A stretch of DNA of 64,000 bases from Kaistia soli DSM 19436. Lineage in GTDB: Bacteria > Pseudomonadota > Alphaproteobacteria > Rhizobiales > Kaistiaceae. The position numbers and the translations under genes are program-made. Under the pieces are notes generated by a model. That model was not told the DNA's origin and ran no database searches. It saw only the letters and a program-made list of their open reading frames with translations. The stretch is taken from assembly GCF_900129325.1 (NCBI RefSeq), contig NZ_FQUP01000002.1, positions 326,668 through 390,667 on the forward strand, written 5' to 3'. Below, piece by piece: positions 7,327 through 24,406 of this stretch (position 1 is its first letter; each line of letters starts with the position of its first letter).

Positions 7327-7408
7327 AGCACGATCTCCCATGACGCGGCGTGCCGGCAGGCCCAGGATCGGATTCGCCGGCTGCGATCGACGCGTTAGAT
7401 CACGGAAT

Positions 7409-9265
7409 TCATGCAGTTTGGTGACGGGGATTGAGAGCAACGCTTCGCCTGCTCAGCGCCTTCTCGAAGGCGTGGCCGAGGCGCTCGGCGGAGATGGGTT
7501 TCTCCAGGAACAGATCGGCGCCGGCCGCCAGTGCAGCTGCCTCGTTGGCCGCATCGCCATTTCCCGACGTCGCGATCATCGCAGGGCGCGCGCGCTCGGC
7601 TGCGGGTGACGCGAAGGCGCGGACGAGGTCGAGCCCGTCGCCGTCGCCGAGTCTCAGATCGACAAGCACGACATCCGGCGGATCAGCGAGCCGCGCCTTG
7701 GCCGCCACCAGCGTTCGCACCTCACTCACCTCATGGCCAAGCCGCTCCAGCACGGCTCGGGCGAGGAGCGCCGAAACGGGATCGTCCTCGACGACGAGGA
7801 CGTCGAGAGGCCGGCGGCCGCGCCGTTCAGGAGCAATGCCATGGGGTTCGTCCGCCGGATCGGCAACGAAGCGGGCCGGACGGTGGATTGCTTCGCCGAC
7901 CACGGCAACGAGCGAGCGGCGACGCACTGGACGCATGAGATAAGCGTCGAACCCGTCGTCCTTGAGTGCGTCGACGGCCCGCCGGTCCCGCGATTCGATC
8001 ATGATTCCCACCGCCAGACGCCCGCCGGCCGCATCGCGCAGCCGCTTCAGCGCAACTTGGGCGTCGATGGCGATGCGTGCGTCGGCAAGAACCATGCGAT
8101 AGGGCTGTCCAGCCGCTGCGGCCGCTCCGACGAGGCCGGTCGCCTCGGAGAGACTGCCGACGAGACGCGTCTCGGCTCCCGCTTCTTCGAGCGCGGAACC
8201 GAGAGCCTCCGATTCAAGACCGGGTGGGGCCACGAGCAGGACCGCCTCGCCGTCGAGCGGCCGGGCTGCGCGGGGCGGGTGCCCGAGGGGCGCCAAGCCA
8301 AGCGTGAAGTGAAAGACGGCGCCGCCGCCCGCGCGCGCTTCGAGCGCGATATGGCCGCCCATCCGCGAGACGATCTGTTGCGAGATCGCGAGGCCGAGGC
8401 CAAGCCCGGTTCCATCGACCCTCGCCCGCTCGAAGCTCGCGAATATCCGGTCGCGGTCGTCGCTGTCGACCCCCAACCCGCTGTCATGAACTGCAAAGCC
8501 GAGGGCGATACCCTCGTCCGCGATCGAATCGGCCGGATCGACGGCCAGCAACACCGATCCCTGCTCGGTTGCCGCGATCGCGTTGGTGAGGAGGTTGATC
8601 AGGATCTGGCGCAGCCGTCCGGCGTCGACCATGACCGGCGGCAGGTTGGGCGCGACCCGCGTGCCGAGGCCGATGCCGCGCTCATGGGCCAGCGGGGCCA
8701 GCAACTCGGCGATGTCCTCGACGAGCGCCTCGATCTCTGCTGGAGCGGGCTGGAGCGTGAACTGGCCGGTCGCGATGCGTGAGGCATCGAGCAGATCATC
8801 GACCAATCGGGCGAGCGCGCCGGCGGACTGCCTGACGGCGCTGACATAGGCGCGCTGCTCGGCCGAGAGCTCGGTTCCGGCGAGCAGATCGACCAGCGCC
8901 AGCACGCCATGCAACGGCGCCCGCATCTCGTGGCTGACGGTCGCAATCGGGATCATCGCCTCGGCCGCCTTTTGCGACCCGGCATCGCTGAGTTCCCAGG
9001 AGAGATCCTGCAATGCCTCGAAACGCTCAGCCATCGCCCGGCGCGTACGGCGTTCGCGAAGGAGCCGCAGCCAGAGGCCCCCGGCGGCGCCGACGGCCAG
9101 GAATAATCCAGCGGCCAGGAAATAGCTGGCCCCGCTCGACGGTTCCAGGAGCCCGATCATCAACGCGAAAATGGCAGGCAGTCCCACACCAAGCGCGATC
9201 AGCGCCGCGGCGAGACGGTGCGTTTCGGACGGCGCGACGACAAGGCGGAGCGGATCGGCGGACAT
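7409..9265 (-). CDS. Hybrid sensor histidine kinase/response regulator
   Basis: A 618-residue membrane kinase. Two hydrophobic segments (about residues 18-40 and 48-66) are followed by a short linker, a HisKA domain with phosphoacceptor His112 in TVSHEMRAPLHG, and a HATPase_c domain with N box (LLTNAI), G1 (DSGLGV) and G2 (GTGLGLGLA). Next is a degenerate receiver-like region (about 340-455, lacking the acidic pair and the conserved KP) and then a complete C-terminal receiver with VVEDD, VLVDLRL and LEKP. There is almost no periplasmic loop, so the stimulus is probably membrane-borne or cytoplasmic. No partner output regulator is adjacent. Confidence 0.9.
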   Translation of the reverse strand: MSADPLRLVVAPSETHRLAAALIALGVGLPAIFALMIGLLEPSSGASYFLAAGLFLAVGAAGGLWLRLLRERRTRRAMAERFEALQDLSWELSDAGSQKAAEAMIPIATVSHEMRAPLHGVLALVDLLAGTELSAEQRAYVSAVRQSAGALARLVDDLLDASRIATGQFTLQPAPAEIEALVEDIAELLAPLAHERGIGLGTRVAPNLPPVMVDAGRLRQILINLLTNAIAATEQGSVLLAVDPADSIADEGIALGFAVHDSGLGVDSDDRDRIFASFERARVDGTGLGLGLAISQQIVSRMGGHIALEARAGGGAVFHFTLGLAPLGHPPRAARPLDGEAVLLVAPPGLESEALGSALEEAGAETRLVGSLSEATGLVGAAAAAGQPYRMVLADARIAIDAQVALKRLRDAAGGRLAVGIMIESRDRRAVDALKDDGFDAYLMRPVRRRSLVAVVGEAIHRPARFVADPADEPHGIAPERRGRRPLDVLVVEDDPVSALLARAVLERLGHEVSEVRTLVAAKARLADPPDVVLVDLRLGDGDGLDLVRAFASPAAERARPAMIATSGNGDAANEAAALAAGADLFLEKPISAERLGHAFEKALSRRSVALNPRHQTA

Positions 9266-9380
9266 CAGGCTGGCCCCTCAGGGTGCCGCAACGATACGGC
9301 CGCATCAGGCTAGTGGAGGTTGATTGCGAAACCCTTGCGTCTGGCCGATCGACCCGGCGCTAGATGCTTGCCGCGGCTGA

Positions 9381-10694
9381 TCAGGCGGCCGCCTGCAGCC
9401 GCTCGCCAACGGCCCGGTAGCTCAGGGCTTCTGCCAGATGCATGCGGCCGACGCGCGCGGCAGCGTCGAGGTCGGCGATGGTCCGCGCGACCTTGAGCAC
9501 CCGGTGATAGCCGCGTGCCGAAAGCTTGAGGGAATGCGCCGCCTCCGCGAGAAGCGCGCGGCCACTGGCGTCAGGTGCCGCAATCTCCTCCATGAGATTG
9601 GTCGGGCAGCGTGCATTGCTGCCGACATCCCTGAGCGAAAGGGCCTCATAGCGCTCGGCCTGCAAGGCACGCGCCGCAGCGACACGGGCGCCGACCACCG
9701 CACTCGTCTCGCCGCGGCCGGGCGCGATCAGATCGGCGGCCGTGACGGCAGGTACCTCGATGCGCAGGTCGATCCGGTCGAGGAACGGCCCCGACAGTCG
9801 CCCCTGATAGTCGGAAACGCAGCGAGCTCCGCGCGCGCAGACATGTCCGGGTTCGCCGGCCATGCCGCAGCGGCAGGGATTCATCGCCGCGATCATCTGG
9901 AAGCGGGCCGGATAGCTGACGCGATGATTAGCGCGCGCGATGACCGCCTCACCGGTCTCCAGCGGCTGGCGCAGCGAATCGAGCACCTGCGGCTGGAATT
10001 CCGGCAGTTCGTCCAGGAACAACACGCCATGATGGGCGAGCGAAACCTCGCCCGGCTTGACACGCAAGCCGCCGCCGACCAGCGCCGCCATCGAAGCCGA
10101 ATGATGCGGGGCGCGGAAGGGCCGACGGTCGGTGAGCTTTCCTCCGGAGAGTTCGCCGCCGATCGACGTCACCATCGAGACCTCGAGAAGCTCTCGCGGC
10201 GTCAGCGGCGGCAGGATCGAGGGCAGGCGGCTCGCCAGCATGGACTTGCCGGCGCCGGGCGGCCCGACCATCAGAAGGTTGTGCCCGCCGGCCGCGGCGA
10301 TCTCCAAGGCACGCTTGGCGACTTCCTGGCCACGGATGTCGGCGAGATCAGCGAGAAGCGGCGGCTCGCGCATCAGCGCCGGCTCCGGCCGCGTCAACAT
10401 CTGCGTGCCTTTGAAGTGATTGGCGATTGCGATCAGGCTGCGCGGGGCGAGGATATCGAGTTCGCGGCTCGCCCAGGCGGCCTCTGGGCCGGTGGCCGCC
10501 GGGCAGATCAGGCCGCGTCCCATGGCATTGGCACCGATCGCCGCCGGCAGCACGCCCGCGACGGCTGTGATCGTGCCATCGAGCGCCAGTTCCCCGAGAA
10601 CCAGATAGTCGGACAGCCGCTCGCCGGGAAGGGCGCCGATCGCGGCCATCAACGCCATGGCGATCGGCAGATCGTAATGGCTGCCTTCCTTCGG
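9381..10694 (-). pseudogene. comM: ComM/YifB C-terminal fragment (interrupted)
   Basis: This is the larger 3' part of comM, a hexameric Mg-chelatase-like AAA+ helicase that promotes branch migration in natural transformation. It begins within PKEGSHYDLPIA and contains the Walker A GPPGAGKSM, the VLFLDELPEF Walker B region, and the C-terminal SARGYHRVLKVARTIADL signature. It lacks the first 78 residues, which lie at 27583-27818 on the other side of the integrated element. The junction is the 17-bp repeat at 10678-10694. Element sequence upstream adds an in-frame GTG (10742) and ATG (10718), so a headless ATPase fragment could in principle be translated. Confidence 0.93.
10678..10694. repeat. 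Left attachment-site core (17 bp)
   Basis: TGGCTGCCTTCCTTCGG, identical to 27583-27599. On the minus strand it encodes P-K-E-G-S-H of comM. The sequences diverge immediately on both sides of the repeat, as expected for the strand-exchange core of site-specific integration. The integrase gene begins 173 bases to the right. Confidence 0.9.
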
Positions 10695-10867
10695 CCGTCC
10701 TGGACTATGCGCTCGCATAATCTCACGTTGCCGGAAGTGCACTCCTCTGCAGATTACCGCCGTTCTAGTCTTATCCGCCCATGCCGGCGATTGGCCGACG
10801 TCTCCTATTGTTTCCCCGCGCGAGGTGAGCCTATTGTGAGTGCAGTCTGCAAACTCACCCGGACGCG

Positions 10868-12121
10868 ATGTCGAAACTCACCAAAACGATTGTTGAAAGC
10901 GCTGAGCCCCGCGAAAAACAATATACGGTCTGGTGCTCCGACCTGAAGGGCTTCGGCGTCTATATCCAGCCCTCCGGCCGGCGGAGCTATTTCGTCGACT
11001 ATCGGACCGCGGACGGCGTGCGTAGGCGGATGACGATCGGAGCCCACGGCGTGCTCACGACGGAACAGGCCCGCAAGCTCGCCATCGAGACTATGGGCGG
11101 CATCGTTCTGCAGAAGGCTGATCCGCTCCTCGAGCGTCGCACGCGCCGGGCATCGCTTACGGTGGCCGAGCTTTGCGACCGATACATGCGCGCCGCCGAG
11201 AAAGGCCTCATACTCGGAAGGAGGAAGAGCCGACCGAAGAAGGCCTCGACAATTGAGATCGATCGCGGCCGGATCTCCCGACATATCAAGCCGCTGCTCG
11301 GCAACAAGCTCGTGATCGACCTTAGCCGGGCAGACATCACGAAATTCGTGCGGGACGTGTCGGCCGGGAAGACCGCGGTGAAGAATCGATCGGGCAAGAA
11401 CGGTGCCCGCGTCGAGGTTACTGGAGGCCTGGGCACCGCCGCAAGGACGGCTGGTTTTCTTGGCGGGATCCTCACCTATGCGGTCGAGGAGGGCATCATC
11501 CCGAGCAATCCGGCTCAGGGCGTCAAGCTGCCAGCGGACGGGGTCCGGACGCGGCGCGTTCTTCCCGCCGATTACAAGGCCATTGGGGCAGCCCTCACGG
11601 CGCCGGAGGCCGAGATAGACACGCCACAGGCGATCTTGGGCGCGTGGCTGCTCGCGCTCACTGGCTGCCGCCTGGGCGAGATCCAGTCGCTGCGCTGGTC
11701 AGAGGTGGACGTGGAGGGCCATTGTTTCCGCCTCGAGGACAGCAAGAGCGGTCCCTCGGTTCGCCCGATCGGCACGGCAGCATTTGACGCTCTCTCCCGC
11801 GCCAAGAAGGTGGCGGGCAATCCTTATGTCCTCCCGGCGCTACGCAAGAACGGCCACTACAATGGCCTCTCCGGGGCGTGGGGGCGTCTGATGCAGCGTG
11901 CGGGCTTGGAGGGCGTGACACCGCACACGATGCGCCATTCGTTCGCGTCGGTCGCGGGCGACCTGGGTCTCGCCGAAAGCACGATTGCTGCGCTCCTCGG
12001 CCATGCCGGCGGGACCGTCACCAGCCGGTATGTGCATCGGCTCGATTCGGTGATGGTGGCAGCCGCGGACAAAGTATGCGGTGAGGTGCTCCGGCAAATG
12101 ACCGCTGCCGATGACAGCTAG
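10868..12121 (+). CDS. int: Tyrosine site-specific integrase
   Basis: A 417-residue phage-type integrase that would catalyse insertion at, and excision from, the comM site. The N-terminal arm-binding region (residues 1-90) has the GFGVYIQPSGRRSYFVDYR pattern of P4-like integrases, followed by a SAM-like core-binding domain (about 95-215). The catalytic domain has a complete set of residues: Arg268 (TGCRLGE), Lys293, His353 and Arg356 (HTMRHSFAS), His379 (LLGHAG) and nucleophile Tyr388. Nothing suggests inactivation. It converges on and overlaps the repressor gene by 4 bases. Confidence 0.96.
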   Translation: MSKLTKTIVESAEPREKQYTVWCSDLKGFGVYIQPSGRRSYFVDYRTADGVRRRMTIGAHGVLTTEQARKLAIETMGGIVLQKADPLLERRTRRASLTVAELCDRYMRAAEKGLILGRRKSRPKKASTIEIDRGRISRHIKPLLGNKLVIDLSRADITKFVRDVSAGKTAVKNRSGKNGARVEVTGGLGTAARTAGFLGGILTYAVEEGIIPSNPAQGVKLPADGVRTRRVLPADYKAIGAALTAPEAEIDTPQAILGAWLLALTGCRLGEIQSLRWSEVDVEGHCFRLEDSKSGPSVRPIGTAAFDALSRAKKVAGNPYVLPALRKNGHYNGLSGAWGRLMQRAGLEGVTPHTMRHSFASVAGDLGLAESTIAALLGHAGGTVTSRYVHRLDSVMVAAADKVCGEVLRQMTAADDS

Positions 12122-12576
12122 AAGGGCTCTTCGGAGTCGTCTAGCGGGGGCATAGGCGACATAGGCAGCTCTGGCTCTTCGAACGGGTTGTAGGCGTCCT
12201 CTTGGGCAATCTCCATCCGCTCCTCCTGCCAGCGCTCCAACTGCTCACTGACGTTTGCGCGGAAGTCTGGCGGCGTCGCGATCTTCCCCTCGTAGATCTT
12301 GTCCACGACGCCGCTGATCTCGTCTATCAGGCGATCAACGCCGCGTGACGGCTCCCCTCCAGCCTTCAGCAGGGCAGCCATAGTCGCAAGTTCTTCTAGC
12401 TTCTCGTCCAGCGTCTTGGGCGCCGGGAAGAAATGCTCAAGGCACCAAACCACGGCCTCGTTCATCGACATTCCGGCGCGTTCCGCTTTCGCCTTGATGC
12501 GGTCCCGCATGCCCGGAGGGAGGCGCAATTGGAACTGCTCGTAGTCCTTCACCTTCGGCTTTTCGGGCAGCACCAT
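12118..12576 (-). CDS. Arc-like ribbon-helix-helix regulator
   Basis: A 152-residue protein. Residues about 14-50 (YEQFQLRLPPGMRDRIKAKA, then AGMSMNEAVVWCLEHFF) form an Arc-type ribbon-helix-helix DNA-binding domain. The rest is acidic and helical with a Pro/Glu-rich tail. It is transcribed away from the early operon, and two near-identical dyads lie in the shared upstream region. It is thus the best candidate for the element's repressor. No CI-type repressor was seen. Confidence 0.82.
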   Translation of the reverse strand: MVLPEKPKVKDYEQFQLRLPPGMRDRIKAKAERAGMSMNEAVVWCLEHFFPAPKTLDEKLEELATMAALLKAGGEPSRGVDRLIDEISGVVDKIYEGKIATPPDFRANVSEQLERWQEERMEIAQEDAYNPFEEPELPMSPMPPLDDSEEPF

Positions 12577-12594
12577 TCACAGACCTCTTTCGAC

Positions 12595-12610
12595 CTAGCA
12601 TGCATGCTAG
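12595..12610. promoter_or_regulatory. Operator-like dyad 1 (TAGCAT-N2-ATGCTA)
   Basis: CTAGCATGCATGCTAG is a perfect 16-bp palindrome, 18 bases upstream of the Arc-like gene start. It shares the TAGCAT-N2-ATGCTA core with a second dyad 58 bp away. Its position fits autoregulation by the RHH protein. Confidence 0.7.
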
Positions 12611-12650
12611 ATTTCGTTTGACTTAGCCACGGGCCTGCGGAATATTCCAG

Positions 12651-12670
12651 TCATAGCATCAATGCTATGA
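12651..12670. promoter_or_regulatory. Operator-like dyad 2 (TAGCAT-N2-ATGCTA)
   Basis: TCATAGCATCAATGCTATGA has 9-bp arms around a CA centre and the same TAGCAT-N2-ATGCTA core as dyad 1. It ends 12 bases before the first gene of the rightward early operon, where a bound repressor would block transcription. Binding by the adjacent RHH protein is inferred. Confidence 0.7.
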
Positions 12671-12682
12671 CAATCCGTAGGG

Positions 12683-12931
12683 ATGGTTAGTCAAATGTCA
12701 ACGCCTGCTCGCCCCCGCCTGCGCCGCTCTGAGGTGCCGAACTACTTGATGGAGAAGCACGGCATCCCGTGCGCATTGAAGACGCTCAACAAGCTTGCCT
12801 CGATCGGCGGCGGCCCTGCGATGCAGTATGCCGGCCGCATCCCGCTCTATCGCCCGGAAGACCTTGATGCCTGGGCTGCCGAGCGGCTCAGCAAGCCGGT
12901 CCGTTCGACCGCTGAGCGGAGCGCCGCATGA
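12683..12931 (+). CDS. Small winged-helix/excisionase-like protein
   Basis: An 82-residue basic protein, first gene of the rightward early operon. The pattern RRSEVPNYLMEKHGIPCALKTLNKLASIGGGP...GRIPLYRPEDLDAWAAER resembles MerR/AlpA-type helix-turn-helix proteins, including phage excisionases, with the closing DLDAW motif. It may serve as excisionase or early regulator. The start at 12683 directly follows TAGGG; an ATG at 12695 (MSTPARPR) is an alternative. Its stop overlaps the next ATG by 4 bases. Confidence 0.75.
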   Translation: MVSQMSTPARPRLRRSEVPNYLMEKHGIPCALKTLNKLASIGGGPAMQYAGRIPLYRPEDLDAWAAERLSKPVRSTAERSAA

Positions 12932-13317
12932 GCGCTGCCGACCTGAAACAGAAAGGTCCGGCGAAGGCGGCAACCTTCCCGGACCGTGGTTCTCACCCCG
13001 CGAAGGGATCATCAAACATGAGCAGCAATATCACGGAGCCGGCCGCGCCGGCAATGAAGGACATGATCGAGGCGTTCCGGCTCCTCGAGGGCGCCATGTG
13101 CGACACACTGCATATGGCCGACCTCGCGTCCGACGTCGTCTGCGATGCTCTTTCCGACACCGAATTGCACCGGAGCATCACCGGCAAGGAGGACGTCGTC
13201 TACATGCCGGCCCTCCGAGTCGACCGCCTGATCTTCGTCACCACGCAGGCATGGGTGATGGTCCGCGATCTACACGCCGCGTACTACGCCGCGCTCCACG
13301 GCGAGGTGGCGTCATGA
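12928..13317 (+). CDS. Hypothetical early phage protein
   Basis: A 129-residue protein of unknown function in the overlapped early operon (ATGA overlaps at both ends). The N-terminal 30 residues are low-complexity and basic; the rest is predicted helical (MIEAFRLLEGAMCDTLHMADLA...). A second ATG at 13018 (MSSNITEP) would give a 99-residue product and could be the true start, since it begins where the ordered region begins. No motif was recognised. Confidence 0.65.
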   Translation: MSAADLKQKGPAKAATFPDRGSHPAKGSSNMSSNITEPAAPAMKDMIEAFRLLEGAMCDTLHMADLASDVVCDALSDTELHRSITGKEDVVYMPALRVDRLIFVTTQAWVMVRDLHAAYYAALHGEVAS

Positions 13318-13499
13318 CCGAGCCCCTCGTCGACCAGATGGACGGTGGTCTCGATCTCATCCGGGTCAGCCGCATCGCTCTCCTTGCCGAAGGATGGATT
13401 GACCAGGACGCGGCAGAGGCGATCGGGCATAGCCTAGACATAGCGCTGAAGATGCTGTCGGCGCCGCGCGAGCACCTGAACCGGGAGCGCGGCGCATGA
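13314..13499 (+). CDS. Hypothetical small helical protein
   Basis: A 61-residue protein starting MTEPLVDQMDGG at the ATG that overlaps the preceding stop by 4 bases and ending in an ATGA overlap with the next gene. Its composition (AAEAIGHSLDIALKMLSAP) suggests a helical protein. The overlap chain is the main argument that it is real. Function is unknown. Confidence 0.65.
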   Translation: MTEPLVDQMDGGLDLIRVSRIALLAEGWIDQDAAEAIGHSLDIALKMLSAPREHLNRERGA

Positions 13500-13732
13500 G
13501 CAACGTCATTCCCTTCCCGCAGGTCGATCGGCTCGTGATCGAGACGGGCGTCTCCTCTCGCGACGATGATCCAGATCAGGTCGGCCAGCGTCTCTTCTGG
13601 TTGGAATACCAGCCCGCCTCTGGCGGTCATCTCATCGCATGGATGGGAACCAGCTTGGCTGGGGCGCGCCGCGCCGCCGGGGAATGGGCGGCCGACGGCG
13701 TCACGATCTCGGACCGGACGGGGATGCCCTGA
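13496..13732 (+). CDS. Hypothetical small protein, early operon
   Basis: A 78-residue protein (MSNVIPFPQVDRL start) with mixed alpha/beta character and a repeated-looking pattern RLFWLEYQPASGGHLIAWMGTSLAGARRAAGEWA. It overlaps the previous gene by 4 bases and abuts the initiator-like gene with no gap. No family was recognised with confidence. Confidence 0.65.
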   Translation: MSNVIPFPQVDRLVIETGVSSRDDDPDQVGQRLFWLEYQPASGGHLIAWMGTSLAGARRAAGEWAADGVTISDRTGMP

Positions 13733-14299
13733 ATGAGCAGCAAGTGGAAGCGAAAGGGCGGTCAGAAGTTTCTCATGATCGACGGCGCGGTCTTCCGATC
13801 GGCCGCCTGGAAGGCGCTGCTGCCGGCCGAACGCGTCGCCTACGAAGAACTCAAGTGGCGATACGACGGCACCAACAATGGACGGATCGGGCTCGGCTGT
13901 AGGGAGCTGGCCGAATTGCTCCATGCAAAAAGCAAGGACACCGCCAGCCGAGCGCTCGCCGCGTTGCAGGAGAAAGGCTTCGTCGCGAAGGCGAAGCCAA
14001 GCGGGTTCACCCTGAAGCATCGCGTCGCAACCGAATGGCGTCTCACCGAGTACCGAGACGACGTCACCGGAGAGCTGCCGACAAGAGAATACGTCCGCTG
14101 GAAGCCGCCCCTCGAAAACAAAACACAGTCCGATGGATCGGACGCACGGTCCGATGGATCGGACAGAGGTCGGATTATACCCGGAGCAAATACGGTTCAC
14201 AGTCCGATGGATCGTACCGTCAGGCCCGTTTCGAGCAAATCACAGTCCGATGCATCGGCCACATATAGATATACCATAGGGGGTGAGACCAATGCGTAG
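13733..14299 (+). CDS. Winged-helix protein, candidate replication initiator
   Basis: A 188-residue protein. Residues about 13-110 look like a winged-helix domain (AVFRSAAWKALLPAERVAYEELK, then LGCRELAELLHAKSKDTASRALAALQEKGF) of the type found in phage replication proteins. The C-terminal 60 residues are Ser/Asp-rich and probably disordered. The DNA coding for this tail contains four 18-bp dyad repeats and is followed by an AT-rich patch. That mirrors phage lambda O, which binds iterons inside its own gene. The initiator role is inferred from this arrangement; a transcriptional regulator is the alternative. Confidence 0.75.
   Translation: MSSKWKRKGGQKFLMIDGAVFRSAAWKALLPAERVAYEELKWRYDGTNNGRIGLGCRELAELLHAKSKDTASRALAALQEKGFVAKAKPSGFTLKHRVATEWRLTEYRDDVTGELPTREYVRWKPPLENKTQSDGSDARSDGSDRGRIIPGANTVHSPMDRTVRPVSSKSQSDASATYRYTIGGETNA
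14125..14259. repeat. Four dyad iterons, candidate replication origin
   Basis: Copies at 14125-14142, 14146-14163, 14199-14216 and 14242-14259 match ACAGTCCGATGGATCGGA with at most two or three changes each. Each is a dyad TCCGAT-N2-ATCGGA (imperfect in copies 3 and 4). Start-to-start distances of 21, 53 and 43 bp are close to whole helical turns. Copy 3 is in a different reading frame of the host gene from the others, so conservation is for DNA, not protein. An AT-rich stretch (14260-14280) follows. Confidence 0.75.
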
Positions 14300-14624
14300 C
14301 TCTGACCTTCCGCTCTTTGCCTGGCAGCCGCCTCGCCAGACGATCCCATTTCCGGCCCGATCTCGCATCGGCCACGCCCGGAAGGTCGCTCTGCAGATGG
14401 CCAAGGCCCGGACGCAGAATGAAGCGACATGGGCCTATACCCGGGCATGCGACTCGTTCGTTGCCCAAATGCGGAAGGCTGGCATCGCCGAGCATGAGAT
14501 TGAGCGGCAACTCGCCGACTTCTCCCGAGCCATCTACGGGCAGTGCCTCAGCGAGCACGCGGCCTGGGTGCCCACGCTGCCTGAGCACGCCTCCTACCAT
14601 CGCAGCCCCGACGGTGCAGCATGA
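14292..14624 (+). CDS. DUF6074-like phage protein
   Basis: A 110-residue protein with the opening SDLPLFAWQPPRQTIPFPARSRIG, followed by a helical body and AGIAEHEIERQLADF, typical of the DUF6074 family found in rhizobial prophages. I chose the ATG at 14292 because AGGGGGTG sits 7 bases upstream; a GTG at 14283 is in frame. It overlaps the initiator-like gene by 8 bases and the next gene by 4. Function is unknown. Confidence 0.72.
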   Translation: MRSSDLPLFAWQPPRQTIPFPARSRIGHARKVALQMAKARTQNEATWAYTRACDSFVAQMRKAGIAEHEIERQLADFSRAIYGQCLSEHAAWVPTLPEHASYHRSPDGAA

Positions 14625-14824
14625 CCTCCCAGACAGCAACCCGAGCCTCCGATGGCGGATGGCAGGTTACCAGCGCGGGAGCGGTCCTCGCCGGCCCATT
14701 CCCGACCATGGCCGAGGCATGGCGGTGGATCGACCGATACGAGGGCGAGCCGATCACGCCCGTGGGCGTCAACCTCACCGCGCTTCTGCGGCCCCGCACC
14801 TCTCTCCCCGATGGTGCAGCATGA
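14621..14824 (+). CDS. Hypothetical small protein
   Basis: A 67-residue protein (MTSQTATRASDGGW start) with the pattern GGWQVTSAGAVLAGPFPTMAEAWRWIDRYEGE, resembling small beta-beta-alpha phage proteins. ATGA overlaps at both ends place it in the early operon. Function is unknown. Confidence 0.62.
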   Translation: MTSQTATRASDGGWQVTSAGAVLAGPFPTMAEAWRWIDRYEGEPITPVGVNLTALLRPRTSLPDGAA

Positions 14825-15063
14825 ACGATCCCCTTTCGCCTGCCGAGTACGATCTGCACTCCGTTTCGACGGTGGAGCGCCAGCTCGCTGAGAGCTTAGC
14901 CGACGCAATCGAAGCGGCACGAAACGCAGGGATGCCCGATCCCGCCCTTCGCCAAGCCCTCCTGGACCTCGCCGTTGCGATCTCGAACGACAATCTCGAT
15001 GCCGCCGTAATGCTCGCGGCCGTCAGGGCTGAGCGCCGCCGGCGGGAGGCAAACCGCCTATGA
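14821..15063 (+). CDS. Hypothetical helical protein
   Basis: An 80-residue helical protein (MNDPLSPAEYDLHS start) with repeated Ala/Leu-rich segments ERQLAESLADAIEAARNAG and LDAAVMLAAVRAERRRREA. The start is fixed by the ATGA overlap with the previous gene, and the stop overlaps the next start by 4 bases. No family was recognised. Confidence 0.62.
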   Translation: MNDPLSPAEYDLHSVSTVERQLAESLADAIEAARNAGMPDPALRQALLDLAVAISNDNLDAAVMLAAVRAERRRREANRL

Positions 15064-15263
15064 CGGATCGGATCCCCCAGGTTCTCATCGGCCACAAGGA
15101 GATTGCCCGCTTCCTCGGCGTCTCTCCTCGTCAGGTGGCATGGCTGGATGAGAAGAACCGTCTTCCCACGTTCCGGATAGGTCGCCGCTCATGCGCTCGG
15201 CCCGACAGCCTGCAGGCTTGGCTGATCGCAGAAGAGGAGAAGGCGCGGCGGCAGAGACGGTAG
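15060..15263 (+). CDS. Helix-turn-helix (AlpA/excisionase-like) protein
   Basis: A 67-residue protein with the complete small-HTH pattern IGHKEIARFLGVSPRQVAWLDEKNRLPTFRIGRRSCARPDSLQAWL and a basic tail. Such proteins act as excisionases or activators in phages and integrative elements. It is the last gene of the overlapped early operon. Either this gene or the one at 12683 could be the excisionase partner of the integrase. Confidence 0.75.
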   Translation: MTDRIPQVLIGHKEIARFLGVSPRQVAWLDEKNRLPTFRIGRRSCARPDSLQAWLIAEEEKARRQRR

Positions 15264-15322
15264 AATGTTGCCGTGAGAACCCATTGATATTGTTATATTT
15301 TCTCCTCCATCGACCATTGACA

Positions 15323-15351
15323 TTCGAGGCTTTGACGCCAAAGTCATCGAA
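15323..15351. repeat. Inverted repeat upstream of the serine recombinase
   Basis: Within the 118-base gap before the recombinase, TTCGA (15323-15327) pairs with TCGAA (15347-15351), and CTTTG (15330-15334) with CAAAG (15339-15343). The gap is also locally AT-rich (15284-15305). It could be an operator, a res-type site or a hairpin; the sequence does not decide. Confidence 0.35.
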
Positions 15352-15381
15352 GGTTGGCAATAACGTTACGGGCTGAGGGCC

Positions 15382-16068
15382 ATGGCAGACGGCAAGTTCA
15401 TCAGCTACCTCCGCGTCTCGACGGAGCGCCAAGGGCGTTCTGGCCTTGGCCTTGAGGCTCAGCGGCAGGCGGTCGCCGAGTATCTCAACGGCGGCAAGTG
15501 GACGGTCCTGCAAGAGGTCGTAGAGATCGAGAGCGGCAGCAAGGATGATCGGCCGAAGCTTCTCGAGGCCATGGCTCTGTGCCGGCTCCACGGCGCCACG
15601 CTGGTCATCGCGAAGCTCGATCGCCTGTCGCGTGATGCCGCGTTCCTGCTGAGCCTGCAAAAGGCTGGCGTGCGCTTCGTCGCGGCCGATATGCCGGAGG
15701 CCAATGAGATGGTGGTCGGCATCATGGCCGTGGTTGCCCAGGCCGAGCGCAAGATGATCAGCCAGAGGACCAAGGCGGCCCTGCAAGCGGCGAAGGCGCG
15801 TGGCCAGAAGCTTGGCGGCTTCCGCGGCGCGATGATCACTGACGAGGCGCGCAAGGCCGGCCGAGAGGCTGCTTCAGCGAAGGCACGGGCTCGCGCGGCC
15901 GACCTGATGCCGGTGATCGAGGAGATCAGGGCCTGCGGCGTAACCAGCCTCGGCGGGATCGCCGCAGCGCTGAGCAGCAAGGGCATCCCGACGGCCCGCG
16001 GCATGAGTGACTGGACAGCCGTCCAGGTATCCCGCGTGCTCGCATCTGCTACGCCATCGAACGCTTAG
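15382..16068 (+). CDS. Serine recombinase (resolvase/invertase family)
   Basis: A 228-residue protein with an N-terminal resolvase catalytic domain: the nucleophile Ser lies in ISYLRVSTERQGRSGLGLEAQR, and KLDRLSRDAAFLLSLQKAGV and the E-helix RKMISQRTKAALQAAKARGQKLG are present. The C-terminal part (about 175-228) has an HTH-like IAAALSSKGIPTARGMSDWTAVQVSRVL. This is the short resolvase/invertase form, not a large serine integrase. It may resolve multimers or invert DNA, but no paired inverted target was found. Confidence 0.9.
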   Translation: MADGKFISYLRVSTERQGRSGLGLEAQRQAVAEYLNGGKWTVLQEVVEIESGSKDDRPKLLEAMALCRLHGATLVIAKLDRLSRDAAFLLSLQKAGVRFVAADMPEANEMVVGIMAVVAQAERKMISQRTKAALQAAKARGQKLGGFRGAMITDEARKAGREAASAKARARAADLMPVIEEIRACGVTSLGGIAAALSSKGIPTARGMSDWTAVQVSRVLASATPSNA

Positions 16069-16136
16069 CACCACTTAGCGACAGTTCGGCCTAACCCCGA
16101 TTGAACCGGGGGCGATGCGCCGACAACTCTCGCTGC

Positions 16137-16535
16137 ATGACGCAAACAAGCCCCTCGATCGCTCAGCCTTTGCCGACCGGCCGCGCCGCTGTGTCGAACG
16201 GTTCGCGCCTGCTTCCGGGCGTGGATGGCCGGAGCGCATCGGCACGCCGCTATCGGGACCTGATGAAGGAGTTCACCGGCGAGCTCGGCGGCGAGGGCAT
16301 CATGACGGAGCCGATGCGTGCCCTCGTGCGCCAGGCTGCAGCCGTGACGGTGGAAGCCGAGAAGATGCAGGCGGCGATCGTCCGCGGCGACCCGGTGGAC
16401 ACCGAGCAGCTGGTGCGGGTGACGAATACCCTCGCCCGCCTCATGAATCTTCTGAAGACGAAAGCCAAGGCGGCTAAGGCCGGCCAGCGAACGGAGCTGT
16501 CCGAATACCTCCGCAACAGGGCGGCCATCGCATGA
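16137..16535 (+). CDS. Putative terminase small subunit
   Basis: A 132-residue helical protein (MTQTSPSIAQPLPTG start) with NGSRLLPGVDGRSASARRYRD followed by helices and a region rich in Arg/Lys. It overlaps the large terminase gene by 4 bases, the usual place for the small subunit that recognises packaging DNA. Sequence similarity alone is weak, so the call is mainly positional. A TTG at 16101 would extend it by 12 residues. Confidence 0.6.
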   Translation: MTQTSPSIAQPLPTGRAAVSNGSRLLPGVDGRSASARRYRDLMKEFTGELGGEGIMTEPMRALVRQAAAVTVEAEKMQAAIVRGDPVDTEQLVRVTNTLARLMNLLKTKAKAAKAGQRTELSEYLRNRAAIA

Positions 16536-17926
16536 GGCCGCTGGTTAGCCTCCGAGAGGCCATGGCCGACCCGGCATTGCTCGGCGGCGCCATTCCCGGT
16601 GAGTCTTGGTTGCCCTGGCGCACGCTCCTCATCGCCGCGATGGGAGAGCCGCTCACGGATGACGAGCGGACGATCTTCACCGCGTTGACGGGCCGCGATA
16701 TCGAGCCTCTGGAGCAGGTTGAGGAGCTCTGGTGCATCGTCGGCCGGCGCGGTGGCAAGACGCGGGCCGCGGGCACGCTGGCTGCCTATGTCGCCGGCCT
16801 CTGCGACCACAGCGACGCACTGGCGCCCGGTGAGCGTGGCGTGCTTCCGATCATGGCGGCGTCGACCGATCAGGCCACACGGGCATTCCACCATGTCGTC
16901 GGCATCCTGAACCATTCCCCGGTGCTGCGGTCGGAGGTGCAGGATCAGCTCTCCGATGTCATCCGCCTCGGAACAGCGATCGATGTGCAGATCCGGCCGG
17001 CGAACTTCCGGACCCTGCGCGGCATCACGGCCGTCGGCGCGATCGGTGACGAGGTGGCGTTCTGGTCCATCGAGGGCTCGGTCAATCCCGACAGCGAGAT
17101 CCTCGACGCCCTTCGCCCCGCGCTGGCGACCACCGGCGGGCCTTTGGTGGTGATCAGCTCTCCCTATGCGAGACGCGGCGAGCTCTGGGCAGCATACAAA
17201 CGGCACTACGGCCCGAAAGGCGATCCCCGCGTTCTGGTGGCCAAGGGACCGTCGCGAACGTTCAACCCGACGCTGAAGCAATCGGTGGTCGACCGGGCCT
17301 ATGAGCGCGATGCGGCTGTGGCTTCGGCCGAATATGGCGGCGAGTTCCGCACCGATGTTGAGGCGCTGCTGACCCGCGAGGCGGTCGAGGCCTGCGTTAG
17401 CCCGGGCGTCCGGGAGCGGGGGGCTGTGGCGTCGACCAGCTACTTCGCCTTCGTCGACCCTTCGGGCGGCAGCGCTGACAGCTTCACGATGTGCATCGGC
17501 CACCGAGATGATCGGGTTGTCGTCATTGACGCCATCCGGGAGCGGAAACCACCGTTCTCACCTGAAGGTGTTGTCGAGGAGTATTGCACGCTCCTCAAGA
17601 GCTATCGGGTCAATCGTGTCAGCGGTGATCGTTACGCTGGCGAATGGCCACGCGAGCAATTCCGTAAGCACGACATCCAATACGAGGTCGCGGTCAAGGC
17701 AAAGAGCGACCTTTATCGGGATCTGTTGCCCGTCCTGAACTCGCGCAACATCGACCTGCTCGATCATGACCGGCTCGTCACCCAGTTGATCGGTTTGGAG
17801 CGGCGCACGGCGCGCGGTGGCCGCGACAGCATCGACCATGCGCCAGGCGCCCATGACGACATCGCGAACGCGGTCGCCGGCTGCATCCAAGCCAAGCGCT
17901 CATTCAATTACGACTGGGTCGCATAA
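16532..17926 (+). CDS. terL: Phage terminase large subunit
   Basis: The 464-residue DNA packaging motor. The ATPase domain has Walker A GRRGGKT (residues 71-77), and a Walker B-like region in VGAIGDEVAFWS with the following SSPYARRG coupling motif. The nuclease domain has acidic metal-binding residues in FVDPSGG, SGDRYAGEWP and APGAHDDIANAVAG. All expected catalytic motifs are present. In a complete phage the portal gene would follow; here it does not. Confidence 0.93.
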   Translation: MRPLVSLREAMADPALLGGAIPGESWLPWRTLLIAAMGEPLTDDERTIFTALTGRDIEPLEQVEELWCIVGRRGGKTRAAGTLAAYVAGLCDHSDALAPGERGVLPIMAASTDQATRAFHHVVGILNHSPVLRSEVQDQLSDVIRLGTAIDVQIRPANFRTLRGITAVGAIGDEVAFWSIEGSVNPDSEILDALRPALATTGGPLVVISSPYARRGELWAAYKRHYGPKGDPRVLVAKGPSRTFNPTLKQSVVDRAYERDAAVASAEYGGEFRTDVEALLTREAVEACVSPGVRERGAVASTSYFAFVDPSGGSADSFTMCIGHRDDRVVVIDAIRERKPPFSPEGVVEEYCTLLKSYRVNRVSGDRYAGEWPREQFRKHDIQYEVAVKAKSDLYRDLLPVLNSRNIDLLDHDRLVTQLIGLERRTARGGRDSIDHAPGAHDDIANAVAGCIQAKRSFNYDWVA

Positions 17927-17936
17927 AGGAGCCCCC

Positions 17937-18572
17937 ATGACCGCCACCGCCCTTGCCACGAAGTCGCCGCCAGCCGCCGCACCCGCGAAGGCCGTCTTGC
18001 CGCCCGTCCTGTCGCTCGATGATCGGATCCGCGCCGCGCTCACGGACCATGCGGCATCGACCGTGATCGCTGAACTGGCCGCCGAGGTCGATGACGCCGT
18101 TGCCGCTGCGGAGAAGCACTATGCGGCAGCGAATGAACGGGCGATCGACCCGACCATTCCGGGCGAGGCCGTCGCCGAAGCGCGGCGTGTGATGGAAGAC
18201 AACGACTTCATCCGGCAGCGCATGCACGAGGCAGCGCGGCGTCTCAAGGATGAGCTCGACGTCGCGAAGGCGCGGGAGGCCGATGCGGCCCGACAGATCG
18301 AGGTCAGCGCCTTCTTCGCCGAGCGCGACCTGCTCATCCGGGATCTCCGCCAGCAATACGAGAACGCCGCCGGCGTCATTCTCAGCCTGCTCCGGCGGCT
18401 GCAGCGAAGCGATGCGGAGCTCGCCCGGCTCGGCCTCGGCCTTGATGCCGGCGCCGAGACAGGGGCGCGTGGCGTTCCGGCGCACTTCCACACGGCGAAT
18501 GGACCTGTGTCGCGCCTCTATGACGCCCGTCTGCCTCAGTTCTACGGCCACGGCTACCTCTGGCCGCGATGA
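17937..18572 (+). CDS. Hypothetical coiled-coil phage protein
   Basis: A 211-residue protein: Ala/Pro-rich N-terminus (residues 1-25), then long helices with coiled-coil character (IAELAAEVDDAVAAAEKHYAAANER; MHEAARRLKDELDVAKAREADAARQIE), and a C-terminal segment ending YGHGYLWPR. It starts 10 bases after terL with GGAG upstream. No portal, protease or capsid feature is present. It could be a minor head or scaffold-like protein, but this is only a guess from position. Confidence 0.6.
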   Translation: MTATALATKSPPAAAPAKAVLPPVLSLDDRIRAALTDHAASTVIAELAAEVDDAVAAAEKHYAAANERAIDPTIPGEAVAEARRVMEDNDFIRQRMHEAARRLKDELDVAKAREADAARQIEVSAFFAERDLLIRDLRQQYENAAGVILSLLRRLQRSDAELARLGLGLDAGAETGARGVPAHFHTANGPVSRLYDARLPQFYGHGYLWPR

Positions 18573-18669
18573 CATCACCGATCCGCGCCGGCGAGCGCGG
18601 TGAAGACGGGAGCGGGGCTCGGCGACGCGGGAACCGCTCCCTTCCAAATCCCAACCCAAGGAGATCGCG

Positions 18670-19077
18670 ATGGAGCGAAGAGCTAAGTTCTCACGAGATG
18701 GCCAGCTGATCGAGGACGACGACGACATCCTGCGGGATGGTCAGACCCTCCGTATCCCAGTGATGCTCCGCGACGGCAGCCCGGCGCCGGCCGGCACGCC
18801 TGCCGCCGACACACTGCCGCCCAACGTCACAGTCCTGGCCGACGGCTCGGCCCGGCACACCTTCGACGATGGCTCCGCTGTGCTGATGATGGGCGATGGC
18901 AGCCGCCGCTATCTCGACGCGGCCGGCAATCCCGCCAAGTCGTTGACACTGGTTCAGCAGGCACACGCCGAAGGTGCAGCCGGCCGGGCGGGGCTGATCG
19001 ATCGCCATGCCCATGTCGACGCGGCTCACCGCGCCTATGAGGCGAACCTCAACACCGCCTGGCGCAACGGCGCCTGA
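18670..19077 (+). CDS. Hypothetical phage protein
   Basis: A 135-residue protein with an acidic start (MERRAKFSRDGQLIEDDDD), a beta-rich middle with repeated DG motifs (LADGSARHTFDDGSAVLMMGDGSRRYLD), and a helical C-terminus. AAGGAG lies 7 bases upstream of the ATG. It sits between packaging and tail genes, where head and tail-tube genes would be expected, but has no recognisable feature of either. Confidence 0.6.
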   Translation: MERRAKFSRDGQLIEDDDDILRDGQTLRIPVMLRDGSPAPAGTPAADTLPPNVTVLADGSARHTFDDGSAVLMMGDGSRRYLDAAGNPAKSLTLVQQAHAEGAAGRAGLIDRHAHVDAAHRAYEANLNTAWRNGA

Positions 19078-19103
19078 ACCTCTCATCGAAGGGATCGACC
19101 ATC

Positions 19104-19541
19104 ATGGCTGAGAAGAAAATCAACGGGCGGACCTTCAAGGTGACGCCGATGCTGGCCTCCGAAGCGCTGGCGATGCAGGCGCGGCTGTTCAAGGCGATCG
19201 GACCGGCCATGCCGCGGCTGCCCGCCATTCTCGCTGGGCTCAAAGAAGATAGGCCGGCGGAGGCCCGTACCGCGGCCGAGGTCAGTTCCATCTCTGCCCT
19301 GGTCGAGATCCTCGGCGGCGCTCAGCCGGGCGAGACAACGGCGCTGGTCAAGGACATCTGCGAGAAGGCGATGATCCAGAGGCAGGGCGGCAACTTCGAA
19401 GATGTCGACCTCGATCATGACTTCACCGGCCACCTTGCCGATATCCCGGCCGTCGTGCTGTTCGTGCTCAAGGAGAACTTCTCCGATTTTTTCGGCGACG
19501 TGCTCAAGAGCGTTGGCAACCGGGCGCGGGCGGCGAGCTGA
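19104..19541 (+). CDS. Phage tail assembly chaperone (upstream frame)
   Basis: A 145-residue protein (MAEKKINGRTFKVTPMLASEAL start) with the composition and position of lambda G-type tail assembly chaperones: it lies just before the tape measure gene and would bind it during tail assembly. A T_TTT_TTC slippery heptamer near its 3' end (19487-19493) leads into an open -1 frame that ends exactly at the tape measure start. A minority of ribosomes would therefore make a longer G-T-like fusion. Confidence 0.82.
   Translation: MAEKKINGRTFKVTPMLASEALAMQARLFKAIGPAMPRLPAILAGLKEDRPAEARTAAEVSSISALVEILGGAQPGETTALVKDICEKAMIQRQGGNFEDVDLDHDFTGHLADIPAVVLFVLKENFSDFFGDVLKSVGNRARAAS
19487..19493 (+). promoter_or_regulatory. 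Programmed -1 frameshift slippery site T_TTT_TTC
   Basis: The heptamer TTTTTTC is in the correct phase (zero-frame codons TTT TTC) for tandem -1 slippage. The -1 frame then has no stop for 82 codons, up to the TGA at 19739-19741. This is the classical organisation of phage tail chaperone genes. No downstream stem-loop or pseudoknot was worked out. Confidence 0.75.
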
Positions 19542-19741
19542 GCGAGGCTGAGCTGCGCCGGGCCGCGCCGACGCTCGATCTCTTCCTGTGGCGGCCGGTG
19601 ATGGCCGACCCGCCGCTGTGCAGCCCGAGCGACTTGCGGACCTGGGTGACGCTCGGCGACCTGCTCGACATGCACGAGGCCCTCGATCTGAAGGCGTTCG
19701 CTGCCGAGAAGGCGGAGCGGGAAAGGGAACAGCGGCGATGA
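19493..19741 (+). CDS. Tail chaperone C-terminal extension (-1 frame)
   Basis: This is the part made only by -1 frameshifting. It reads RRRAQERWQPGAGGELSEAE, then RRAAPTLDLFLWRPVMADPP and a charged helical tail ending REREQRR. The predicted fusion is about 212 residues (130 zero-frame plus 82). The TGA stop overlaps the tape measure ATG as ATGA, which supports the frame being translated. In lambda the equivalent T domain recruits the tail tube protein. This region is not preceded by a good independent start. Confidence 0.72.
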   Translation, partial: RRRAQERWQPGAGGELSEAELRRAAPTLDLFLWRPVMADPPLCSPSDLRTWVTLGDLLDMHEALDLKAFAAEKAEREREQRR

Positions 19742-21678
19742 CCGTCATCGACGAACTCATTGCGATCCTCGGCTACAAGTTCGAGGGCGAGAAGGACGTC
19801 GCCCGCTTCAAGCAGGGCATCGACGGTGCCGAGAAGCGGCTGCGCAGCTTCGCCTCAGCCGTCACTGTCATCGGTGCCGCGATCACCACCGGCGTTGGGG
19901 CGATGTTCGCCCGATCGGTCATTCAGGTCGGCTCGCAGTTCGAGAACCTGCAGGTTCGGCTCGAATCTCTGGAAGGATCATCGGACAAGGCCAAGAAGGC
20001 GATGGATTGGGTGACGATCTTCGCGCAGAAGACGCCACTCTCACTCAAGGAGACCGCCGACGCCTATGCGATGCTGAAGACCTTCGGCATCGACCCGATG
20101 AACGGCTCGCTGCAGGCGGCCGTCGACACAATGGCGAAGAATGGCGGTTCAGCCGATTATCTCCAAGGCGTCATTCTCGGCCTCGGGCAGGCATGGACCA
20201 AGGAAAAGCTGCAGGGTGAGGAAGCGCTGCAGCTGATCGAGCGCGGCATTCCCGTCTGGGAACTGCTCTCGGAGGCGACGGGCAAATCCGCTGCCGAGCT
20301 GCAGAACCTGTCGCAGAAGGGCAGGCTCGGCCGGAAAGAGATCGCGCTCCTCATCGAGATGATGGAGAAGAAGTCTTTCGGCGCGTCGGAGAAGATGGCG
20401 AAGACCTGGTCCGGCGTCACCGGCCGGCTCGGCGACACCTGGACGATGTTCCTGAAGCGGATCGCCGATGCCGGCTTCTTCGACACGGCGAAGCGCCAGG
20501 TCGATCGGTTCTCCGACTTTCTCACGGAGCTCGCTGCCGACGGGCGGCTCGAACGCTGGGCGAGGACGCTGTCCGACGCGCTGTCGGCGGCTGCGGACGC
20601 TATCAGTCCCATTGCAAAGGGCATTGTGAAGGACGTCGGCACAATCGTCGATGCCTTCAAGAAGATGCCGGAGCTCAAATGGGCAATGTTGGCGCTCGGC
20701 GTCTTCATGTTCCCGACTGTTGCGGCCTTCGGGCTTCTCGCGCTGCTCGCCGATGATGTGCTGACCATGATGCGGGGCGGCAAGTCGATCATCGGCGACT
20801 TCTCCAGATGGCTGCAGGATCTCACCGGCATCGCCAAGAGCACCGCCGACGCGATCTCGCTGATCGGAGCCGCGATCCTCGCCGCCTTCATCTTCAAGCC
20901 GGCGCTGGCGAGGGCAGGGTTGGCTGCAGTCGGCGGCCTTGTCGGACTGGCAAGAGGCATCCTCGGCAGTGCGGCGCCGGCGGCCGCTCCCGCAGCTGCT
21001 CCGGCAGTCGCCCCTGCCGCTGCGGAGGCCGGCTTCCTGGCATGGGCCGGACGGGGGCTCGCGCGCTTCCTGGCGCCGATTGGTGTCGCCCTCGGCGTCG
21101 CGGAGCTGCTGAAGACCTTCGATCCCAAGGGAAACCTTTGGGGCCTGACGTCGGGCATCGACAAATGGATGAAGAAGAACACAGGCTTTGATCCGTCCAA
21201 CGTGACCCCGGACGGTTCGCAGCGCGGCACCTTCGGTCAGCGACTCGACGGCGGGCCGAACAAGGTCGATCTCTTCCGCGTCCCGGCCGCTGTCCCTGAT
21301 GGCGGACGAGACTACACGCTCGGGGCCTTCGGCGGCTTCCGGCAGCCAGGACAGGCACCTGTAGCGGGCGGGTTCAAGGGCGGCGATGTCTGGGTCGACA
21401 GGATGAACGCGGCGCTCGCCAAGCTCCCTGCCGTGTTCGAGATGGTGGACAAGATGTCGGGCGCGATGCCCGGATCGACGGCGCCGCAGGTGATGAATGA
21501 CAATCGCCAGGACAATCGCTCCACGACGGTCAACATCACGCAGAACATCGCGCAGGCCAGCGATGCGCCGCGCGCCGCGGCCGAGGCGACCGGACGCGCT
21601 GTTTCCGGGAGAGCCTCTTCGTTGTCGCAGCCGGCCAGAAAGGTCGATCCCGCCACAAATTGGGGAGGACCGCGCTGA
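19738..21678 (+). CDS. Phage tail tape measure protein
   Basis: A 646-residue protein that sets tail length and occupies the tail lumen. The N-terminal part has the tape measure signature (DVARFKQGIDGAEKRLRSFA...AITTGVGAMFARSVIQVGSQFENLQVRLESLEGSSDKAKKAMDW), with hydrophobic segments at about 320-345, 375-400 and 440-480 and an Ala/Pro-rich linker near 420. The ATG at 19738 overlaps the stop of the frameshifted chaperone; an apparent extension to 19588 is that gene read in another frame. The protein is short for this family, implying a short tail or internal loss. Confidence 0.88.
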   Translation: MTVIDELIAILGYKFEGEKDVARFKQGIDGAEKRLRSFASAVTVIGAAITTGVGAMFARSVIQVGSQFENLQVRLESLEGSSDKAKKAMDWVTIFAQKTPLSLKETADAYAMLKTFGIDPMNGSLQAAVDTMAKNGGSADYLQGVILGLGQAWTKEKLQGEEALQLIERGIPVWELLSEATGKSAAELQNLSQKGRLGRKEIALLIEMMEKKSFGASEKMAKTWSGVTGRLGDTWTMFLKRIADAGFFDTAKRQVDRFSDFLTELAADGRLERWARTLSDALSAAADAISPIAKGIVKDVGTIVDAFKKMPELKWAMLALGVFMFPTVAAFGLLALLADDVLTMMRGGKSIIGDFSRWLQDLTGIAKSTADAISLIGAAILAAFIFKPALARAGLAAVGGLVGLARGILGSAAPAAAPAAAPAVAPAAAEAGFLAWAGRGLARFLAPIGVALGVAELLKTFDPKGNLWGLTSGIDKWMKKNTGFDPSNVTPDGSQRGTFGQRLDGGPNKVDLFRVPAAVPDGGRDYTLGAFGGFRQPGQAPVAGGFKGGDVWVDRMNAALAKLPAVFEMVDKMSGAMPGSTAPQVMNDNRQDNRSTTVNITQNIAQASDAPRAAAEATGRAVSGRASSLSQPARKVDPATNWGGPR

Positions 21679-22169
21679 TGGGCTTCTATGCCAAGGTGAT
21701 CCGTCGGAGCGGCGGCGGATTGAAGAAGCTCTTCGTGCCGAAGCGGCGGCGGTCCATCGTCAAGGTCGGCTTCCCCGCCGGAGAGGTCAAATCATCGGTC
21801 ATCATGCGGGCGATCTACAACGAGTTCGGCACGCGCGGATCCGGCAAAGGATTCAAGACGGAGCGAGGCGGCGGGTTCGGCGGACCTATTCCTGAGCGGC
21901 CGTTCCTCCGCAACGCCATGCGCGAGAACCGCGATGCCTACCGCGCGGCGATGAGGGCCGCAGCGCGCAGGATCTTCGCCAAGAAGCTGCCCGTAGGCGA
22001 GGAACTGCGCCGGCTCGGCGTCAAGGCGCAGGGCGACGTGCAAAAGTCTATCCAGACACTGACTTCGCCCCCGAATAGTCCGCTCACAATCGCATTGAAG
22101 GGCTCTGACAAGCCGTTGATCGACACGGGTGAGATGGGGCAGGCAGTCACCTTCAAGGTCGAGGAGTAA
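21678..22169 (+). CDS. HK97 gp10-like/virion morphogenesis protein
   Basis: A 163-residue basic protein starting at an ATG that overlaps the tape measure stop by one base. The pattern AIYNEFGTRGSGKG...PERPFLRNAMREN...ELRRLGVKAQGDVQKSIQTL...PLIDTGEMGQAVTFKV is the shape seen in HK97-gp10/gpG-like tail completion proteins: NEFGT, PERPFLR and a closing DTG segment. The position after the tape measure is unusual for HK97-type phages but occurs in other tailed phages. Confidence 0.7.
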   Translation: MGFYAKVIRRSGGGLKKLFVPKRRRSIVKVGFPAGEVKSSVIMRAIYNEFGTRGSGKGFKTERGGGFGGPIPERPFLRNAMRENRDAYRAAMRAAARRIFAKKLPVGEELRRLGVKAQGDVQKSIQTLTSPPNSPLTIALKGSDKPLIDTGEMGQAVTFKVEE

Positions 22170-22175
22170 CCCGCC

Positions 22176-22781: not shown

Positions 22782-22782
22782 C

Positions 22783-23112: not shown

Positions 23113-23161
23113 GGATCCGGAATGCGGGCCCCATCGCGGACTAGAAAGACCCGCGGGCAGG

Positions 23162-24405: not shown

Positions 24406-24406
24406 G

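Follow-up and report, generated by a model that had tools for sequence, protein, structure and literature searches.

A putative replication initiator gene with a candidate origin at its own 3' end, shared by small integrative elements of Pseudomonadota

The 64,000-nucleotide stretch of Kaistia soli DNA analysed here, hereafter the window, contains a gene on the + strand (13733–14299, an open reading frame of 188 amino acids) that, judged from sequence, very probably encodes a winged-helix replication initiator whose origin lies at the 3' end of the gene itself and serves small integrating elements. The reading as an initiator system follows from the observation that relatives across many proteobacteria keep the layout of the locus while the sequence of the sites changes.

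Four dyads are located in the 3' part of the gene on the + strand: iteron 1 (14128–14143) and iteron 2 (14149–14164), both GTCCGATGGATCGGAC, iteron 3 (14202–14217, GTCCGATGGATCGTAC), and iteron 4 (14245–14260, GTCCGATGCATCGGCC), with successive spacings of 21, 53, and 43 bp. Iterons 1 and 2 match TCCGATGGATCGGA exactly, the arms of iteron 1 being perfect, and iterons 3 and 4 each contain one mismatch. A preliminary description of this DNA had reported these four copies, with the same spacings, as 18-bp dyads in a gene ending at 14283. The copies and the spacings were recovered, whereas the conserved unit is best given as 16 bp (GTCC-N8-GGAC) and the open reading frame extends to 14299. Iterons 1, 2, and 4 share one frame and iteron 3 lies in another, in agreement with that description. 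The array scored 30, whereas the highest score was 20 in 1000 dinucleotide shuffles and 25 in the 157 equal-length regions of the window. The exact sequence TCCGATNNATCGGA occurs at three sites in the 5.23-Mb genome, two of which are within the array; the third (C7:307428–307441, L003) is a lone copy outside the element. Near the candidate origin, one DnaA box was found against 1.8 expected, and an Rfam scan yielded no match.

Homologues were gathered by protein similarity alone, and included relatives at 64–67% identity and many others at about 23–50%. The five close homologues exhibited the identical 21/53/43 spacing with five different repeats, among them GTCGCACCCATCGGAC (L034), GTCCGCTCCACCGGAC (L035), GTCCACTGAGAGGGAC (L033), and GGGGCACCACAGGTCC (L031); in L031, the stop codon of the gene precedes copies 3 and 4. 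When a uniform test was applied (at least three copies and a score above all 20 shuffles), 42 of 66 loci had an array with its own sequence at the 3' gene end, compared to 4 of 66 upstream and 2 of 66 downstream control regions, and 24 of the 66 testable homologues had no array at this threshold. The earlier claim, which had been staked on homologues possessing the repeats, is thus borne out in most of them, each with a sequence of its own.

The 159 copies in 43 arrays comprise 91 inside and 68 outside the gene, and imperfect dyad arms are common among them. In 40 of the 43 arrays, copies occupy more than one reading frame or lie outside the gene. In the 43 arrays, the 97 spacings no longer than 70 bp, a set in which related loci are partly non-independent and the 21/53/43 clade was entered once, exhibited a period of 10.75 bp (R = 0.80), with clusters at about 22, 32, 44, and 54 bp, whereas random spacings never exceeded R = 0.35 in 2000 trials. 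A 3-bp period was not detected in the same 97 spacings (R = 0.10, p = 0.35). The mixed-frame and outside-gene copies, together with the lack of a 3-bp period, indicate from the sequences that the repeat array is under selection at the DNA level, and the phasing of about 10.75 bp suggests that the bound proteins would be arranged on one face of the helix, which counts against RNA- or peptide-level explanations. The selection on DNA and the near-helical phase, both proposed earlier for the window alone, therefore hold for the family.

The 3' end of the array adjoins a candidate origin core, CACATATAGATATACCATAGGGGG (14260–14283, + strand), which is a putative melting and loading site and consists of an AT-rich tract of about 17 bp (14260–14276), TACCA at 14272–14276, and a subsequent G-run. 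The AT-rich tract that had been noted after the repeats is thus present, but it is short and forms one conserved unit with the G-run. In the homologues, AT-rich DNA and TACCA likewise come after the last repeat, in most cases with a G-run, while the repeats diverge; across the five close homologues, the core is nearly invariant although their iterons differ. The core 18-mers had a median rank among the least stable 2.3% of windows in the surrounding 3 kb.

A matrix of the core, trained on array-bearing loci and scored on both strands over about 3.3 kb per locus, placed its top match between +120 and +260 from the domain in 32 of 45 homologues; these 32 include 12 of the 23 homologues kept out of the training, some of which are kin of training loci. 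By our estimate, the chance of a match in this interval is about 2% per locus. For 24 later loci, the top match was found at +120 to +330 in nine. The core was not the top match of the matrix in 13 of the 45 homologues and 15 of the 24 later loci. When the search was reversed and started from the core alone, 1 of 108 IMG/VR contigs with ATATAGWTATACCAKG encoded an initiator-like protein, and the order-level genomes yielded two core matches, with an initiator-like protein in the window alone. Since so few core-bearing contigs and genomes encode the protein, the core is informative in its context only and is non-specific as a stand-alone pattern.

The predicted structure of the protein and its matches point to an initiator. 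The AlphaFold model has pLDDT values above 90 over most of residues 11–130, which form the winged-helix domain, and below 50 over residues 141–188, which are coded by the iteron region and predicted to be disordered. In a Foldseek comparison with the PDB, the top eight matches were all replication initiators (4pql, 5kbj, 4pt7, and 4pta); the match to RepA_N had an E value of 2.7e-4 and a probability of 1.00, with modest TM-scores (0.37/0.51). A profile of 41 homologues, compared with PDB sequences, ranked RepA_N initiators in its top four places (E values of about 3e-5 to 1e-4), with RepA_N chains matched at 2.7e-5 over most of the winged-helix domain. The viral fold matches in BFVD included replication initiators, a replisome organizer, and lambda GpO-type proteins, and the PHROG matches of 14 family members comprised a DnaD-like loader in 10, replication initiation in 8, and the O-like PHROG 345 in 4. 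The earlier assignment to winged-helix proteins of the initiator type is thereby supported by model, fold, and profile.

Conversely, membership in the lambda O family, as previously proposed, is not borne out. The lambda-O model PF04492 matched neither the window protein (E ≤ 0.1) nor any of the 14 family members (E ≤ 0.01), the nearest solved relatives are RepA_N plasmid initiators, and the C-terminal half of lambda O is without a counterpart in the protein. For the same 14 proteins, no match to the Pfam RepA_N model PF06970 was reported at E ≤ 0.01; Pfam returned generic helix-turn-helix (HTH) models only, with weak matches of the MarR, IclR, and LexA type. No domain known for contacting a helicase or primase was found in the protein. 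The 15-residue stretch with the lowest conservation among the five close homologues is the recognition helix (43% identity vs 65% overall), which fits a shifting site specificity. In the wider family, iteron similarity follows overall protein similarity (r = 0.44), and no co-variation of the recognition helix beyond overall protein similarity was detected (partial r = 0.04, p = 0.21).

The gene resides in an integrated element of 16.9 kb (window 10678–27599), the ends of which are an exact 17-base direct repeat. The left attachment-site repeat, TGGCTGCCTTCCTTCGG (10678–10694), lies inside a comM/Mg-chelatase-like gene that is split by the element into a C-terminal part (9381–10742) and an N-terminal part (27438–27959), and the right repeat, a 17-base match to the left one, forms the end of the element (27583–27599). 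The comM-like halves were recognised at 9384–10742 and 27441–27959. A tyrosine integrase (10868–12121, +; Pfam Phage_integrase, 2.8e-16) and an Arc/RHH regulator (12118–12576, −; Pfam Arc, 2.1e-7) precede the initiator-like gene, as does a small HTH-like gene without a family match. The element further encodes a resolvase, a large terminase, a tail chaperone, a tape measure protein, neck proteins, and TIR-domain cargo; no portal or capsid gene was recognised in it. In agreement with the earlier description, in which no lambda P-like loader or DnaC had been recognised, no helicase, primase, or helicase loader was recognised in the element. At the right end, a CAP12/Pycsar-type TIR-domain gene (25778–26749) and a DUF4145 gene (26769–27437), both on the − strand, look like anti-phage defence cargo.

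The next gene after the initiator-like gene encodes a DUF6074 protein (PF19551; 14283–14624, +), and three of four close homologues likewise have a DUF6074 gene as the next one downstream. A role of DUF6074 as a replication partner is possible in these close relatives. As an obligatory partner it was rejected, because no more than 8 of the 26 DUF6074 loci, a set with several weak matches, have an initiator-like protein nearby (up to about 1.5 kb). Separately, the DUF6074 protein of the window has a DLPLF sequence near its start that loosely resembles a sliding-clamp-binding motif.

Initiator-like proteins were detected in 36 of 398 sampled Pseudomonadota genomes (about 9%). Six homologue queries found one in a single record out of 50,697 phage records, and plasmid searches found the protein on large plasmids only, with no small plasmid having it as the sole initiator. 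The sole phage record is Pseudomonas phage vB_Pae_U1 (L037), in which the gene is annotated as replication protein O. This 16-kb record carries the gene at 3747–4214, with four GGTACAGAAACTGTACC-type iterons and a TACCA core, and is possibly a satellite or island in its own right. In other genomes and records, an integrase was located within about 5 kb in 23 of 25 contexts, and 10 contexts have bounding repeats, either at tRNA genes or in the form of short repeats. The extent of the element was established for these att-bounded cases; as the search for the right end reached about 9 kb, larger elements would be missed.

Five of the att-bounded elements measure 5.0, 5.7, 5.8, 6.3, and 7.1 kb (L069, L082, L078, L087, and L079), and no other replication gene was recognised in several of the tRNA-integrated elements of 5–7 kb. 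In L069 and L082, the called genes are the integrase, one other open reading frame each, and the initiator-like gene, with gene calling crude enough that small genes may have been overlooked. The 4.96-kb element of L069 has a strong core and no clear array. The earlier assumption of an ordinary phage is not supported: members of the family lie for the most part close to integrases on bacterial chromosomes, in several cases within tiny islands, and are nearly missing from phage isolates, the window copy itself belonging to a 16.9-kb element without recognised portal or capsid genes.

Several of these elements carry further genes. L076 (6472–18027) and L084 (reverse strand, 7048–17850) are 11-kb tRNA-integrated elements with an integrase, the initiator, the array, and a large terminase; an excisionase/AlpA-type gene, a major head protein, and a head protease were found in L076, where they were checked. 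With no tail gene noticed, both resemble capsid-forming satellites. L070 (12.5 kb) and L072 (8.9 kb) are also tRNA-integrated, each with a tape-measure-like gene, and L070 has an SF2-type helicase-like gene immediately upstream of the initiator. An RNase H-like gene in L031 (6848–7453), recognised by eye, is the second gene downstream of the initiator, and in the 6.3-kb element of L087 a toxin-like gene accompanies a protein with a HicB-like antitoxin domain (6676–8609).

In the proposed mechanism, the winged-helix domain would bind the four dyads, probably as one dimer each, as the dyad symmetry suggests, with all the dimers on one helix face, and the bound iterons would form a compact nucleoprotein complex. 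This complex would strain the neighbouring AT-rich tract and induce melting beside the TACCA/G-run core, where a helicase from the host or a helper phage would be loaded. In the protein, the disordered tail (roughly residues 128–188) would largely be a by-product of the in-frame origin, and the module would confer autonomous replication on excised small integrative elements, such as satellites or degraded prophages, rather than on a full phage. A broader reading can be put forward only tentatively: these loci may be widespread minimal replicators of Pseudomonadota, in which a bare winged-helix protein, phased and fast-diverging iterons, and an AT-TACCA-G core suffice to replicate elements down to 5 kb with host or helper enzymes, by a novel mode of helicase loading at TACCA.

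The winged-helix domain, with its weak MarR-, IclR-, and LexA-type matches, would also suit a transcription regulator, the dyads being operators of a promoter in the AT stretch that drives DUF6074 and the genes beyond it. The array of the window is immediately upstream of that next gene, and TATAGAT/TATACC resembles a −10 element. This explanation is nevertheless unlikely, because no sigma-70 promoter-like site was found in 13400–14700, TACCA with a G-run is no known promoter signature, and both the fold and the profile comparisons are headed by initiators. In addition, L069, L082, and L087 offer nothing to regulate at this place, as no gene was called from the array or core to the attachment site. 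Selection of the repeats as a peptide (QSDGSD), with the DNA dyads as a by-product, accounts for the similar peptides of the in-frame iterons 1, 2, and 4, but can be virtually dismissed in view of the out-of-frame iteron 3, the 68 of 159 family copies outside the reading frame of the gene, the spacings without a 3-bp period, and the predicted disorder of the tail.

The array could instead be a packaging site of the pac or cos type, and the protein a small terminase subunit. In some phages the pac site lies inside the terminase gene, and winged helices, as well as binding to sites within their own genes, are known from some small terminases; satellites, moreover, require packaging signals. Against this very improbable alternative, the PHROG, Pfam, PDB, and BFVD matches of the protein include no terminase family, L031, L034, and the window each have a separate gene just before the large terminase gene (that of the window having no small-terminase family match), and the gene order, with an integrase and, in some contexts, an AlpA-type gene ahead of this gene, resembles that of replication modules. 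A different question is whether the window copy, though a replication module by origin, is now an inactive relic in a decayed prophage, which rivals only its present activity. The lack of recognised portal and capsid genes, the disruption of comM, and the imperfect arms of iterons 3 and 4 give this some weight, but it remains the less probable state, since the gene is intact, as are the four iterons and the core, and the homologues often have imperfect arms.

If the reading as an initiator with its origin at the 3' end of its gene is true, it assigns a replication system to a family that is present in about 9% of the sampled Pseudomonadota genomes and matches no specific Pfam replication family, and the array and core, taken in context, would be a signature for finding where small integrative elements and satellites have their origins. 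It would also raise the question of how an initiator without an effector domain recruits a helicase. Because iterons vary naturally between nearly identical flanks, initiator-iteron specificity and its evolution are testable by swaps.

Initiators with in-gene iterons are an already known kind. As in lambda O and ori-lambda, the initiator has imperfect inverted repeats in its own gene, with four iterons and an AT-rich flank, and as in lambda O and the O proteins of Stx phages, in which extra iterons add 13 residues to the protein (PMC7466680), the iteron-coded stretch contributes residues to the protein. Unlike in lambda, the C-terminal domain is absent here, no P protein or P/DnaC-type loader was recognised, the sites span about 135 bp at several helical intervals, the iteron sequence varies between homologues in arrays that are often partly outside the gene, and the AT tract is short and joined to the TACCA/G-run core. 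The RepA_N initiators (pSK41 and pTZ2162 Rep, PLE RepA) provide the nearest solved fold and sequence profile. The Rep of pSK41 binds four boxes in the middle of its own gene, with a dispensable origin-coded linker (PMC5703833), and the RepA of Vibrio PLE, which requires helper-phage functions, is a precedent for an initiator of this type in a phage satellite (PMC7145576). In contrast to pSK41 Rep, the window protein lacks a C-terminal host-specific domain of the type that contacts DnaG, and unlike those of RepA_N initiators, the window iterons are not A-tract centred; RepA_N has also been reported as rare in Gram-negative bacteria, whereas the present family is found in Pseudomonadota.

In the PICI and PICMI satellites, which are likewise small integrative elements, the integrase and an AlpA-type gene come first, and the origin directly follows the initiator gene on its 3' side (PMC6092414, PMC10803314). 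In the present loci, an integrase is found upstream of the initiator in 23 of 25 contexts and the array lies 3' of the gene or at its end; an AlpA/excisionase-like gene was confirmed in some contexts (L076), and the small upstream HTH-like gene of the window matched no family. The satellites encode a Pri-Rep or a primase, whereas here a bare winged-helix initiator occurs with no primase recognised, and in PICIs of Gram-negative bacteria the AT-rich region of the origin lies between two sets of iterons, compared to a single set on one side here. A literature search found no description of the present combination, with most subscription papers outside its coverage. By analogy, the proposed mechanism would match the logic of lambda O, pSK41 Rep, and the PICI layout, and what appears to be new is the combination of a bare winged-helix initiator that neither the lambda-O nor the RepA_N model of Pfam matches, arrays that diverge between relatives while their phasing stays constant, a TACCA core common to them, and a wide distribution in small integrative elements.
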